DNA of 64,000 nucleotides from an uncultured Prochlorococcus sp. GTDB lineage: Bacteria > Cyanobacteriota > Cyanobacteriia > PCC-6307 > Cyanobiaceae. Position 1 is the first letter of the stretch. Every line of letters starts with the position of its first letter. Position numbers and translations under genes: made by a program. Under the pieces are notes generated by a model. The model did not search any database, was not told where the DNA came from, and worked only from the letters and a program-made list of their open reading frames with translations. The stretch covers positions 1 through 64,000 of the forward strand of contig CACNWH010000001.1 of the NCBI GenBank assembly GCA_902624105.1. Reading direction: 5' to 3'. Positions 37,886-52,054 of the stretch are shown here, one piece after another.

Positions 37886-37930
37886 CCCCCCCTTGTCATT
37901 TGGTGGGTATAAGAGCTAAATTTTTATTAT

Positions 37931-38002
37931 TCCTCGGTAGCTCAGCGGTAGAGCGATCGGCTGTTAACCGATTGGTCGCAGGTTCGAATCCCGCCCGGGG
38001 AG
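37931..38002 (+). tRNA. tRNA-Asn (GUU anticodon)
   Basis: A complete cloverleaf of 72 nt. The acceptor stem TCCTCGG pairs with CCGGGGA (one G-T wobble), the D-arm is GCTCAGCGGTAGAGC, the anticodon loop is CTGTTAA (anticodon GTT), and the T-arm contains GGTTCGAATCC. The gene is encoded without CCA. It marks the left edge of the low-density region that follows, and tRNA genes are common island integration sites. Confidence 0.97.
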
Positions 38003-38026
38003 TTTTTATGTCTTGAAAAGTCATGC

Positions 38027-38180: not shown

Positions 38181-38277
38181 AAAAAAAGACCTCTATTTCT
38201 AGAGGTCTTTTTAAGGTCTTATTGAATCAAGTGTATCCTTGTTTCCACTGATTTAGTAAAACCACTCCTACACACAT
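38181..38277 (-). ncRNA. Yfr2-family small RNA, copy 1
   Basis: On the minus strand the predicted RNA starts near TGTGTGTAGGAG, contains CAGTGGAAACAAGGATACACTT with the GGAAACA element that defines the cyanobacterial Yfr2 (Cyano-2) family, and ends at a hairpin (AGACCTCTAGAAATAGAGGTCT) with a T run. The same layout recurs at 42.6 and 50.5 kb. A TATATA sequence lies just upstream as a -10 candidate. Start position is estimated. Confidence 0.82.
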
Positions 38278-38330: not shown

Positions 38331-38355
38331 CTTAACTGTCACATGTGCCAATTAT
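38331..38355. promoter_or_regulatory. Imperfect palindrome upstream of Yfr2-like RNA copy 1
   Basis: TTAACTGTCACATGTG followed by CCAATTA: the left arm and centre match the perfect palindrome at 50384, with two mismatches in the right arm. It lies about 54-78 bases upstream of the estimated RNA start, the same distance as at the other two copies. Confidence 0.55.
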
Positions 38356-38370
38356 GAAAAAAATTATTAA

Positions 38371-38440
38371 AAAACACCCTAATCTTTTGAATCGGGGCGT
38401 TTAGTGATCAGAAATTATTGTGTGAGGAGTTTTCTGATGT
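38371..38440 (-). ncRNA. Yfr1-like small RNA
   Basis: On the minus strand the sequence reads ATCAGAAA-ACTCCTCACAC-AATAATTTCTGAT, then a rho-independent terminator (AAACGCCC...GGGTGTTT plus a T run, 38371-38402). ACTCCTCACAC is the invariant unpaired 11-mer of the cyanobacterial RNA Yfr1, here flanked by complementary ATCAGAAA/TTTCTGAT arms. Yfr1 is Hfq-independent and base-pairs with ribosome binding sites of membrane-protein mRNAs. The 5' end is estimated. Whether this is the genome's only Yfr1 or a paralogue cannot be seen here. Confidence 0.75.
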
Positions 38441-38670: not shown

Positions 38671-39330
38671 TTGGAAGAGATATTAAAAATATCTTGTTGG
38701 AATTCAGATTAGGCAACTCCCTCTTCAAAGAGAGGTAAGTTTTTTATTGAGAAATTTGATTCTGATGTTATTTTTCTTAAAGAAGGATATGAGACTCTCC
38801 TTCCAATAGATGGATATATAATTTCTTCTCATGAGGATTATGGTTATAGAACTAAAAATGGTCGTAAGAAGGTAATTCTTTGGTCAAGAAATGAATGGAC
38901 TCAAATTGATCAATTAGGTTCAAAGGCAATTTCATCAGGAAGATTTATTTCAAGTTTTACAAACGGCATAAGAGTTATAGGTGTTTGTATACCATGGAGA
39001 TTTGCTCATGTCAGCACAGGTAGAAAAGATCGCAAACCATGGGAAGATCATCTTTCTTTTACTCAACATTTAAGTTTTCCAAATCAAAGAACTATTATTC
39101 TTGGAGATTTTAATCAGAATATTCCCAATAAGAGTCAACCAGAAATCGTTTTTTCCTCTCTAAAAAATATGATTGATGGGTTTAATTTATTGACTACAAA
39201 TATGGGTCTTATTCATATAGTTACTTCAAGTGATTTAAATGCAGAGGGTATAAAGAGAATTGCAACTGGCAATAATAGTGACCATGATGGAATAATTTGC
39301 TTAATTAATTTAAAAAAATTTAACCAATGA
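38671..39330 (+). pseudogene. Endonuclease/exonuclease/phosphatase family protein, interrupted by one amber codon
   Basis: From a TTG at 38671 the frame reads ILKISCWNSD, then TAG at 38710-38712, then ATPSSKRGKFF and an open frame of 205 codons to a TGA at 39330. The downstream protein has DSDVIFLKE, VIGVCIPWRFAH, the metal-site block ILGDFNQNIP and the C-terminal NNSDHDGII, which are EEP-superfamily catalytic motifs. The N-terminal WN of the fold lies just before the stop. No alternative start follows until far downstream. The last four bases overlap the next gene (ATGA). Readthrough or a very recent mutation would both fit. Confidence 0.78.
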
Positions 39331-39758: not shown

Positions 39759-39917
39759 TTAATAAACTTTGCAATGAGCACTTGTTGGATGCTCTATACA
39801 TTCTTTATCCCAGAAATCTTGCTTTGCTTCTTTTGGTAATTTGTAATTAAAATCATGCATTCTCCACATATCTGAAGTGGCATTTCTAAGAGCATTGAAC
39901 GGAGTAGTGAGTTTCAT
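39759..39917 (-). CDS. MKL-family micro-protein, copy 1 (intact)
   Basis: A 52-codon ORF starting MKLTTPFNALRNATSDMW and ending FWDKECIEHPTSAHCKVY. It shares its start (MKL-TP), its ribosome binding site context and the terminal Glu-Cys...His-Cys pattern with five other sites in the island. A derivative of this copy, with two in-frame stops, lies at 43999-44157. Family unknown; two cysteines near the C terminus suggest a disulfide or metal site. Confidence 0.6.
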   Translation of the reverse strand: MKLTTPFNALRNATSDMWRMHDFNYKLPKEAKQDFWDKECIEHPTSAHCKVY

Positions 39918-40680: not shown

Positions 40681-40875
40681 TTAAACATATCCATTACTTA
40701 TAGTTGGAGATTCTTCATCACAATACATGATACAAGGATCAGATTTAAATATTTTTCTATAGTCATCATGCAATCTTTCAGTTGCAAACCTTTCTTTTGA
40801 TTTTAAAGCATGTCTTATCAAATCCATCTCATTGAATTTTCGATTAAGGATGGTGAAAGGAGTAGTTAGTTTCAT
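40681..40875 (-). CDS. MKL-family micro-protein, copy 2 (intact)
   Basis: A 64-codon ORF: MKLTTPFTILNRKFNEMDLI ... HDDYRKIFKSDPCIMYCDEE. The CIMYCD end parallels CLIYCD in the copies at 41602 and 47742. AGGAG lies at ribosome-binding distance before the ATG. The frame stays open upstream to an ATG at 41028 through part of the leader repeat, giving a 115-codon alternative; the short start is preferred because it matches the other family members. Confidence 0.6.
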   Translation of the reverse strand: MKLTTPFTILNRKFNEMDLIRHALKSKERFATERLHDDYRKIFKSDPCIMYCDEESPTISNGYV

Positions 40876-40924
40876 GAGTTCTCCTAGATCTTTTTTATAT
40901 TGTCGCTCGATTTGTATTTTATTT

Positions 40925-41082
40925 GTAGAGTGTTTTTGCTCAAGTAATAATGCTTTGTGGTTCTCAGCACTATATTTTTCTATCTGATAGGAGTATAAAA
41001 ATACAGGAGTCAAGTTAACTTCAAACATTTAGGCGAACGAAGTTCAAGACTCGAAAGGGGCAAAAACATGCCCCCTTTATTT
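40925..41082. repeat. Leader repeat, copy A
   Basis: About 160 bp shared with 42129-42292 and 44209-44362. The common blocks, read on the plus strand, are AGAGTGTTTTTGCTCAAGTA, ATAATGCTTTGTGGTTCTCA, and AAGTTCAAGACTCGAAAGGG followed by a small hairpin (GGGGCA...TGCCCC). Each copy lies immediately upstream (minus strand) of an MKL-family gene or its remnant, so it is probably the promoter and leader of that family. Confidence 0.8.
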
Positions 41083-41601: not shown

Positions 41602-41784
41602 TCAGTCGCAATAGATTAAACAATGATTATTGGTTGGATTTTCCATGCATTCTTTCTCCCAGAAGTTCTTAATTGCAGGTGGACATTTCTCAAGTTCTTT
41701 TGGTGTTTCCTTCATCTTTTCGCCTGCATAATTAAATGCATTTAAGTATCTTGGAAGGATTGAAAATTGATTGAATAGTTTCAT
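41602..41784 (-). CDS. MKL-family micro-protein, copy 3 (intact)
   Basis: A 60-codon ORF: MKLFNQFSILPRYLNAFNYA ... NFWEKECMENPTNNHCLIYCD. A full AGGAGGTCTC ribosome binding site precedes the ATG. The C-terminal FWEKECMENPTNNHC block is nearly identical in layout to the copies at 39759 and 47742. Four residues end in CLIYCD, with two Cys flanking an aromatic residue. Confidence 0.65.
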   Translation of the reverse strand: MKLFNQFSILPRYLNAFNYAGEKMKETPKELEKCPPAIKNFWEKECMENPTNNHCLIYCD

Positions 41785-42573: not shown

Positions 42574-42669
42574 AAAAAAAGGACCCTATTTCTAGAGGTC
42601 TTTTTCCGTGTCTACCGAATTAAGTGTATCCTTGTTTCCACTGCTTCAGTAAAAACACTCCTGCACACA
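42574..42669 (-). ncRNA. Yfr2-family small RNA, copy 2
   Basis: On the minus strand the RNA begins near TGTGTGCAGGAGTG, contains CAGTGGAAACAAGGATACACTT with the GGAAACA core, and ends in a hairpin (GACCTCTAGAAATAGGGTCC) plus T run. It is the closest relative of copy 1 (38181), including the terminator. The terminator has one compensating mismatch. Start position estimated. Confidence 0.8.
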
Positions 42670-42723
42670 TATTAAACACTATGCTATTTATTTTTTCTGT
42701 GAGAGGGGAAAGTAGAATGTTTC

Positions 42724-44925: not shown

Positions 44926-45340
44926 TTTTGTCTTATTGATAATATTTGATAACCTCCACGAAAAATATAGTATTAAATTTAGATTTTATTAATCCAATAT
45001 TTTTTGCGAACAAGAGAATTACTTTAGTTTTAAATGGCCTTTCATATTTAAACGAATGTTTCCTTGTTTACATTTTTCCTGAAATAAATAATTTACACAA
45101 ATTTAAAATTAGACATAAATTTTTATAGGTAAGCCACTTAGGTAAAAAAAATTCTCACATAGCAATATTTTCAATAAAAAATAAATTAATAAGCATAAAG
45201 TATTTATTGCTGAATTAGAAATTAATTTATTAATTGCCCTAATTTCATATTTTAATTTGCCTTAATATAAAATTACTGAAATATTAAATACAAAAAAATA
45301 TTTTTTGTAAATAGTTATTAATCTAGATAATCTATAGCAG
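44926..45340. other. Gap with no supported gene
   Basis: About 415 bases. A 60-codon ORF at 44946-45128 on the plus strand has a TTG start, no ribosome binding site and no recognisable composition; it is not called. No hairpins of note. Confidence 0.5.
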
Positions 45341-47741: not shown

Positions 47742-47909
47742 CTAATCACAGTAAATCAGACAAGAATGATTCGTTGGATGTTCTAAGCATTCTTGATCCC
47801 AATAATCATACTTCATATAATTATCACTTTTGTTTTGAACATGCATTTCTTTATTATTAAATGCATTTAGGAATCTGGGAAGGATTTTTAATGGAGTAGC
47901 CAGTTTCAT
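47742..47909 (-). CDS. MKL-family micro-protein, copy 6 (intact)
   Basis: A 55-codon ORF: MKLATPLKILPRFLNAFNNK ... YWDQECLEHPTNHSCLIYCD. A perfect AAGGAGGTCTT ribosome binding site precedes the ATG. It is the best-preserved member together with copy 3, sharing PRFLNAF and ECxExPTNxxCLIYCD. No leader repeat lies upstream. Confidence 0.68.
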   Translation of the reverse strand: MKLATPLKILPRFLNAFNNKEMHVQNKSDNYMKYDYWDQECLEHPTNHSCLIYCD

Positions 47910-50383: not shown

Positions 50384-50409
50384 TTTAACTGTCACATGTG
50401 ACAGTTAAA
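50384..50409. promoter_or_regulatory. Perfect 26-bp palindrome upstream of Yfr2-like RNA copy 3
   Basis: Thirteen bases (TTTAACTGTCACA) are followed directly by their reverse complement. The centre is TGTCACATGTGACA. It lies about 52-77 bases upstream of the estimated RNA start. Centre near -65, where upstream activators typically bind. It does not match the NtcA consensus (GTA-N8-TAC). Confidence 0.7.
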
Positions 50410-50460: not shown

Positions 50461-50554
50461 GTTGTGTGTAGGAGAAGTTGATTATTCAGTGGAAACATGG
50501 ATACACTTGTTTTAATCAACTTGAAAAAGACCCTTTTTAAGGGTCTTTTTTTTT
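50461..50554 (+). ncRNA. Yfr2-family small RNA, copy 3
   Basis: Plus-strand RNA starting near GTTGTGTGTAGGAG after a TACTAT -10 candidate. It contains CAGTGGAAACATGGATACACTT (GGAAACA core) and ends in AAGACCC...GGGTCTT plus a T run (50524-50554). It is the only copy on the plus strand and the only one with a perfect upstream palindrome. Confidence 0.85.
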
Positions 50555-50565
50555 AGTATATCAAT

Positions 50566-50916
50566 TTAGTCTTCCCACATATCAAGTTTTTTATCTTCTC
50601 TTTTTTCTTCAGTTTCAATATTTACTTCTCTGAAATTCGAATTAGATTTATCACCTTTTTTTTCCCCTAACTTTACTTTAATTTCCTTTATTGTATTCTC
50701 AAAGTCATCTTTAAAGAAATCTTCCATCTCGTTCCAAGCCTCTAATTCTTCGTCGTTTCCAATAGTATTTTTAATTTGAAGGGAAATATTGTCAATAACA
50801 AAATCTTTTAAATCATTGTTATTCATGCTTTTAACTTTTAGATCTATGTAGATATCTTTTAATAGTTCAAGTTCTTTCGGAGATAAATCTGAATAATTAA
50901 TTTGTTTTTTAGCCAT
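50566..50916 (-). CDS. Small acidic hypothetical protein
   Basis: A 116-residue protein from MAKKQINYSDLSPKELELLK; an ATG three codons upstream (50925) is the alternative. Highly charged and helical, with a Lys/Glu-rich C terminus (EEKREDKKLDMWED). It is convergent with the Yfr2-like RNA, 11 bases away, and marks the right edge of the island. Unrecognised. Confidence 0.55.
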   Translation of the reverse strand: MAKKQINYSDLSPKELELLKDIYIDLKVKSMNNNDLKDFVIDNISLQIKNTIGNDEELEAWNEMEDFFKDDFENTIKEIKVKLGEKKGDKSNSNFREVNIETEEKREDKKLDMWED

Positions 50917-51280: not shown

Positions 51281-52054
51281 ATGAAAACTACCATTCTTTT
51301 AATTGAAGACGATCGCGACATGCGAGATTTAGTTTCGGGACATCTTGAACATTCTGGTTTTGATGTTTTAAAGTCTGATGACGGAATTAAAGGTCAAGCT
51401 TTGGCTTTGCAATATTCTCCAGATATCATCTTGCTAGACTTAATGCTCCCAAACGTTGACGGCCTTACTTTATGCCAAAGGTTGAGAAGAGATGATAGAA
51501 CGTCAGGTATACCCATATTAATGATTACAGCACTAGGCGGATTAAAAGATAAGGTTACTGGTTTTAATTCTGGAGCTGATGATTACATTACAAAACCTTT
51601 TGATCTAGAAGAGCTTCATGTCCGTATCAAAGCTCTTTTGAGAAGAACTAACAGAGCTGCATTAAATTCTACAAATCAGCAAGAAATACTCAATTATGGT
51701 CCACTCACGCTTGTGCCAGAAAGGTTTGAGGTGATTTGGTTTAATTCTCCAGTAAGACTTACTCATTTAGAATTCGAATTATTACATTGTTTACTTCAAA
51801 GACATGGTCAAACTGTCTCACCCGCATTAATTTTAAAAGAAGTATGGGGTTATGAGCCAGATGATGATATTGAGACCATTAGAGTTCATGTTAGGCACTT
51901 AAGAACAAAATTAGAACCTGATCCCAGGAAACCACAGTTTATTAAAACCGTTTATGGAGCTGGATATTGTCTAGAACTTCCTACAAGTAATCAAGCAGAT
52001 GTCGCTAAGGACGAATTTATCAATTCAAGAGAGTCAAATTTAATCAACTCATAA
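51281..52054 (+). CDS. rpaA: Response regulator RpaA
   Basis: OmpR-family response regulator of 257 residues. N-terminal receiver with phosphoacceptor Asp53 (LLDLMLP) and the Lys in TKPF; C-terminal winged helix with [18 protein letters not shown] and [13 protein letters not shown]. The [20 protein letters not shown] stretch identifies RpaA, the clock output regulator phosphorylated by SasA in other cyanobacteria. It converges with holB, one base apart. Confidence 0.95.

Follow-up and report, generated by a model that had tools for sequence, protein, structure and literature searches.

A tRNA-Asn island of an HNLC1-like Prochlorococcus carries a Yfr10 gene together with its partner Yfr2

We analyzed a 64,000-nt stretch, here called the window, from the draft genome of an uncultured Prochlorococcus (1.10 Mb, 67% complete), in which a variable slot beside a tRNA-Asn gene carries two small RNA genes on the minus strand (Table 1). 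The 11-mer ACTCCTCACAC occurs only once in the window, against a chance expectation of 0.02, and the RNA that surrounds it matches the Rfam model of Yfr10 (RF02362) over its full length (positions 1-78 of 78). The first-pass annotation had recognized a Yfr1-type 11-mer with complementary arms and a terminator, which exact matching and folding bear out on the minus strand; the interval that it gave, 38371-38440, was a few bases off, with the element running from 38359 to 38438. In the minimum free energy (MFE) structure, with which the centroid agrees, an 8-bp stem formed by ATCAGAAA and TTTCTGAT closes a 16-nt loop that holds the motif, and a terminator hairpin with a U run comes next. The predicted folding energy of these 80 nt is -16.3 kcal/mol (z -3.72), and none of 200 shuffled sequences is equally stable. 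Both hairpins covary among relatives: 92.9% of the cells are paired versus 43-56% when the partners are slid, and 20 cells have changes on both sides versus 5.9 after shuffling (0 of 500), although both counts come from an alignment that was fitted to the structure and thus favors this result. A strict terminator scan flagged the terminator of the neighboring Yfr2 RNA but not the terminator hairpin of Yfr10. The element is a Yfr10 copy next to its partner Yfr2 in variable DNA, which is the normal arrangement for this RNA.

Table 1. Features of the tRNA-Asn slot and its borders (positions in the window)
Feature	Position	Strand	Evidence
tRNA-Asn(GTT), left border of the variable slot	37930..38003	+	ARAGORN
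Terminator of the Yfr2 RNA	38183..38212	-	Stem of 13 pairs, 4-nt loop, T run
Yfr2-family small RNA (Cyano-1, RF01701), downstream partner	38210..38277	-	Rfam 66.3 bits (gathering 41)
Palindrome-like box TTGGCACATGTGACAG, candidate GntR (CGRE1-type) operator	38336..38351	-	2 mismatches to CTGTCACATGTGACAG
Yfr10 small RNA (RF02362)	38359..38438	-	Rfam 68.2 bits (gathering 43); own model R1, 73.9 bits
Terminator hairpin of Yfr10, U run at end	38371..38402	-	Fold; 5/9 pairs changed on both sides among relatives
3' arm of motif hairpin, TTTCTGAT	38407..38414	-	Fold; pairs with ATCAGAAA
Motif ACUCCUCACAC in hairpin loop	38420..38430	-	Exact match; unpaired in MFE and centroid folds
5' arm of motif hairpin, ATCAGAAA	38431..38438	-	Fold; covariation counts, 73 distinct relatives
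Yfr2-family RNA inside the island, no Yfr10 partner detected	42603..42672	-	Rfam 48.5 bits
Yfr2-family RNA near the right border, no Yfr10 partner detected	50462..50526	+	Rfam 60.2 bits
DUF7326 gene, first of the conserved right flank	50566..50916	-	Pfam; syntenic in relatives
Right anchor, a response regulator gene with receiver and C-terminal DNA-binding domains	51281..52054	+	Pfam

The downstream partner belongs to the Yfr2 family by both its match to RF01701 and its complementary 5' tail. Among the two Yfr2-family RNAs that have no detected Yfr10 partner, the one near the right border has a counterpart at the same place in three related genomes (G121, G080 and G107). A faint Yfr2-like match also lies at 45036-45101 on the minus strand (28.9 bits, E 0.014), and all clear copies of Yfr2 that the draft genome yielded, three in number, are inside the window.

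A location beside tRNA-Asn, within an island and head to tail with a Yfr2-like RNA, had been noted at the outset and is confirmed, but it had also been called unexpected, whereas tandem order with Yfr2 is the rule for Yfr10 and the published arrangement. In high-light strains, Yfr10 homologs lie upstream of Yfr2 homologs (PMC6778093, sections consulted), and the window element is likewise followed on the same strand by the Cyano-1 RNA at 38210-38277. By text pattern, a Yfr2 core comes after Yfr10 on the same strand in 97 of the 103 relatives examined (the window plus places among the Yfr10 matches listed, with part of the core-type places omitted). Five loci missed by the text pattern are outside this count (L023, L024, L025, L027 and L029), and model R1 finds Yfr10 in all of them; among the six relatives without Yfr2 by text pattern, one (L058) has it by model R2.

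The spacing from the end of the Yfr10 match to the Yfr2 core is 89-99 nt in one group of 39 pairs and 110-121 nt in a second group of 58. The first includes Yfr18-Yfr5 of MED4 and has a shared gene context where this was checked (MED4, G050 and G093); in HNLC1 and HNLC2 the neighboring gene of this core pair is kept beside one of their copies, and in a tree of the pairs the six core rows included split from the 61 others with support of 100/99. When the count is limited to pairs flanked by 4 kb or more on each side, a tRNA lies within 4 kb of 20 of 31 pairs in the 110-121 nt group (17 tRNA-Ser and 3 tRNA-Asn hits) versus none of 37 in the 89-99 nt group. Because a tRNA is often near, we named the 110-121 nt group the island class, although island location is shown for only part of it. 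The gene neighboring the core Yfr18-like pair was not found in the 67% complete draft, so the absence of that pair is uninformative. Several pairs at tRNA-Ser loci (L048, L050, L119, L125, L134 and similar ones), mostly some 1.7 kb from the tRNA gene, have an altered motif (for example ACTCTTCACAC), many of them together with a GUGUGAAGGAG Yfr2 tail.

Between the two RNAs of the window lies a palindrome-like box, 103 nt upstream of the Yfr2 core. Of the 58 island-class pairs, 46 have a palindrome with at most four mismatches to CTGTCACATGTGACAG at a distance of 100-104 nt on the upstream side of the Yfr2 core; such palindromes are not exclusive to this class (15 of 39 core-class pairs), but within two mismatches the counts are 32 of 58 versus 0 of 39; shuffled intergenic sequence gave 6 of 1160 for the island class and 2 of 780 for the core class. 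The GntR factor PMM1637 binds the CGRE1 motif in yfr2 promoters (PMC6778093, sections consulted), and we infer that the box is CGRE1 and bound by a GntR protein; one GntR-domain gene was detected in the draft genome, on contig C20. Elsewhere in the window, a perfect 16-base palindrome stands at 50389-50404, upstream of the partnerless Yfr2 RNA at 50462, and the one at 42603-42672 has a weak palindrome with five mismatches. The distinction of core and island classes and the fixed place of the palindrome are new here.

The borders of the slot are conserved, with the left flank and its tRNA-Asn syntenic in G042 and G143, and the response regulator on the right 83-97% identical in the relatives mapped. 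We took the distance from tRNA-Asn to the response regulator gene as slot length in 75 stretches, 62 of them spanning both borders; this sample is not random. The tRNA-Asn pattern occurs in 121 genomes of the genus, from which we used 73, for the most part those of higher completeness; among the 73 are the five further genomes with the exact tRNA and four in which Yfr10 had already been seen close to tRNA-Asn. HNLC1 and HNLC2 complete the set. Slot length ranges from 0.9 to 12 kb among the 62 fully spanned slots and is about 13.3 kb in the window. In the 26 short slots of about 0.9-1.3 kb (up to 1,335 bp), the text patterns found neither Yfr10 nor Yfr2, and the models R1 and R2 gave no match with an E value of 0.01 or less, with weak Yfr10-model matches in the short slot L315 (26.4 bits, E 0.36) and in HNLC2 (L305; 24.8 bits, E 0.7) counted as negative. 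Yfr10 is present in six of the 62 (L058, L059, L061, L064, L077 and L108), all of them longer, and slot L060 holds Yfr2 only. The other 13 stretches end before the right anchor; four of these hold Yfr10, among them HNLC1, where two tandem Yfr10-Yfr2 pairs separated by about 850 bp stand next to tRNA-Asn (L304, 1571-2653). A small island open reading frame (ORF) that lies between the two HNLC1 pairs is also found in the window. Even within the tRNA-Asn group of the window, the pair varies in place, orientation and number, with two in HNLC1, one each in the slot stretches of G080, G088 and G121, and none in the 3.5-kb slot of G107 (the stretch of G097 is incomplete).

Because none of the 26 short slots but six longer ones hold Yfr10, and because place, orientation and number differ within the same tRNA-Asn group, the Yfr10-Yfr2 pair is accessory island cargo, not a core RNA around which an island has grown. 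The first-pass annotation had left both options standing and had proposed comparing strains with and without the island: this comparison, together with the Yfr1 found elsewhere in the genome, supports an island paralog, and the short slot forms that lack the RNA leave insertion around a core RNA unsupported. The mapping of this slot is new here. Yfr10 at the tRNA-Asn slot is not named in the parts of the Yfr10 literature examined, and the consulted sections of PMC7368042 and PMC5069720 have nothing further on the tRNA-Asn locus.

A word search with the 185-base tRNA region against the window gave no convincing partial copy of tRNA-Asn as a far-end attachment site, and no integrase was found among ten proteins of the island and right flank scanned against Pfam. 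As for a phage origin, the exact Yfr10 pattern is in none of the IMG/VR contigs, and the pair matched phage records by blastn in just 31 bases of its A+T-rich leader, in Bacillus phage G, which we took as chance. Four non-cyanobacterial pattern matches (L197, L238, L260 and L263) have no Yfr10 by Rfam and were also taken as chance. Of ten IMG/VR contigs filed as viral and holding the Yfr2 core pattern, seven, putatively viral, score just above the Cyano-1 cut-off (42.3-42.9 versus 41 bits; L176, L177, L179, L180, L181, L183 and L184). The island also encodes a family of four small proteins of 52-115 aa on the minus strand (39759-39917, 40681-41028, 41602-41784 and 47742-47909) that have an MKL stretch in common and mostly a tail like WDKECxEHPTNxHCLIYCD. 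On the plus strand, 38728-39330 is an open frame of about 200 codons with no upstream start codon, possibly a truncated gene, which by eye we take to resemble the end of an endonuclease/exonuclease/phosphatase protein.

In the tree, the window pair groups with one of the HNLC1 tRNA-Asn pairs (support 99/87), and these two lie inside a larger cluster (100/98) whose six rows all come from the tRNA-Asn group of the window. The remaining tRNA-Asn pairs are found elsewhere, G042 with G143, and G092, G031 and G028. Limited by short sequences and many open forks, the tree suggests that the pair was inherited and locally duplicated in the HNLC1-like lineage and that it arrived separately in others. 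It is unlikely, in our estimation, that the tRNA-Asn pair was instead ancestral to the genus and lost with the island in most lineages: occupancy of the slot in several of them (G042, G143, G092, G031, G028 and the HNLC1 group) speaks for such a history, but the tRNA-Asn pairs are scattered over about five places of the tree among pairs from other sites, which repeated arrival fits better.

The island copy might be a decaying, untranscribed relic, as other island copies have altered motifs and CUCCUCACACA is absent in 17 of 58 island-class pairs, but we judge this very improbable for the window, where the motif, both hairpins and the 5' tail of the partner are all intact. The idea that the element is the Yfr1 of the genome with an island inserted around it, which drew on the exact 11-base Yfr1 motif that it has in common with Yfr10, can be set aside with near certainty: Rfam assigns the RNA to Yfr10, the Yfr1 model (RF01116) has no match at 38359-38438 up to E 0.5, the motif sits in the loop of the first hairpin whereas Yfr1 carries it in a single-stranded linker between two hairpins, the RNA is absent from the short slots, and the search for a second 11-mer RNA that had been proposed at first found exactly one other exact copy in the draft genome, on contig C18, a true Yfr1 (53.8 bits, motif between two hairpins). 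Across the genus, Yfr1 was found in 118 of 151 genomes, with one match per matched genome among the matches listed, and Yfr10 in 123 of 151, often in several copies. The locus thus appeared surprising because Yfr10 had been mistaken for Yfr1; the apparent oddity is removed, and no core RNA has been displaced.

Yfr10 of MED4 has the same family model, loop motif and two-hairpin anatomy as the window RNA and likewise lies directly upstream of a Yfr2 gene in a genomic island. As described in the consulted sections of PMC2518516, it maps to 346661-346738 within island 1 and immediately precedes Yfr2, its transcript being about 78 nt long and the joint precursor 270 nt; the motif is complementary to the 5' end of each of the three MED4 RNAs Yfr2, Yfr4 and Yfr5, and ncRNAs are concentrated in islands. 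The two differ in that the window copy occupies the tRNA-Asn slot, which in MED4 (L068) is without a pair, and in one extra A before the motif that gives the 16-nt loop. MED4 Yfr18-Yfr5 and Yfr12-Yfr4 follow the same tandem plan of a motif RNA upstream of a Yfr2-family RNA, the former being core class (89-99 nt spacing) with a different terminator, the latter island class with a changed motif. Binding of Yfr2 to Yfr10 was shown by pull-down in MED4, the targets of Yfr10 partly overlap those of Yfr1, and Yfr10 rises in darkness (PMC6778093, sections consulted).

The two RNAs of the window have the potential to pair, with a modeled interaction of -13.3 kcal/mol versus a mean of -2.7 when the loop is shuffled (0 of 1000), while whole-RNA duplexfold energies, dominated by stems and terminators, are mostly no better than shuffled. 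Neighbors are not specially matched: in the island class, pairing in cis has a mean of -12.01 versus -11.80 for permuted partners (p 0.095), and co-evolution of neighboring Yfr10 and Yfr2 is unsupported in either class (p 0.34 in the core class). Most likely, therefore, the pair would act within one pool that all motif RNAs and Yfr2 RNAs share rather than as a private couple. By analogy with MED4, we infer for the source genome that both RNAs are transcribed, bind and regulate. Yfr10 would be expressed from its own start and display the CUCCUCACAC motif in its hairpin loop, which may pair with the Yfr2 5' tail (GUGUGUAGGAG) and with sites in mRNAs, part of which would also be bound by Yfr1, the constitutive core RNA. 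A separate promoter, whose palindromic box is probably GntR-bound, would drive Yfr2 just downstream, and Yfr2 would bind both Yfr10 and Yfr1 and so relieve or block their action, and read-through could yield a joint precursor as in MED4. Extra island copies would be expected to shift the dose of the motif RNA and its antagonist. With this proposed mechanism included, we consider it highly probable that a Yfr10 gene with its Yfr2 gene is cargo of a tRNA-Asn island in Prochlorococcus close to HNLC1.

These results extend Yfr10 to the HNLC1-like lineage and provide a mapped tRNA-Asn slot with clean presence and absence states among related genomes. We also offer, tentatively and with considerable doubt, a broader reading in which Yfr10-Yfr2 is a recurrent cargo module of Prochlorococcus tRNA-Ser and tRNA-Asn islands, where a regulator RNA and its antagonist arrive together repeatedly, with fixed spacing and an operator for the host GntR factor, and plug island-borne dose control into the Yfr1 network. 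Prochlorococcus is without genetic tools (PMC6778093, sections consulted). If this reading is true, the dose effect of Yfr10 and Yfr2 on the Yfr1 network could be measured by comparing natural strains that have island copies with strains that lack them.
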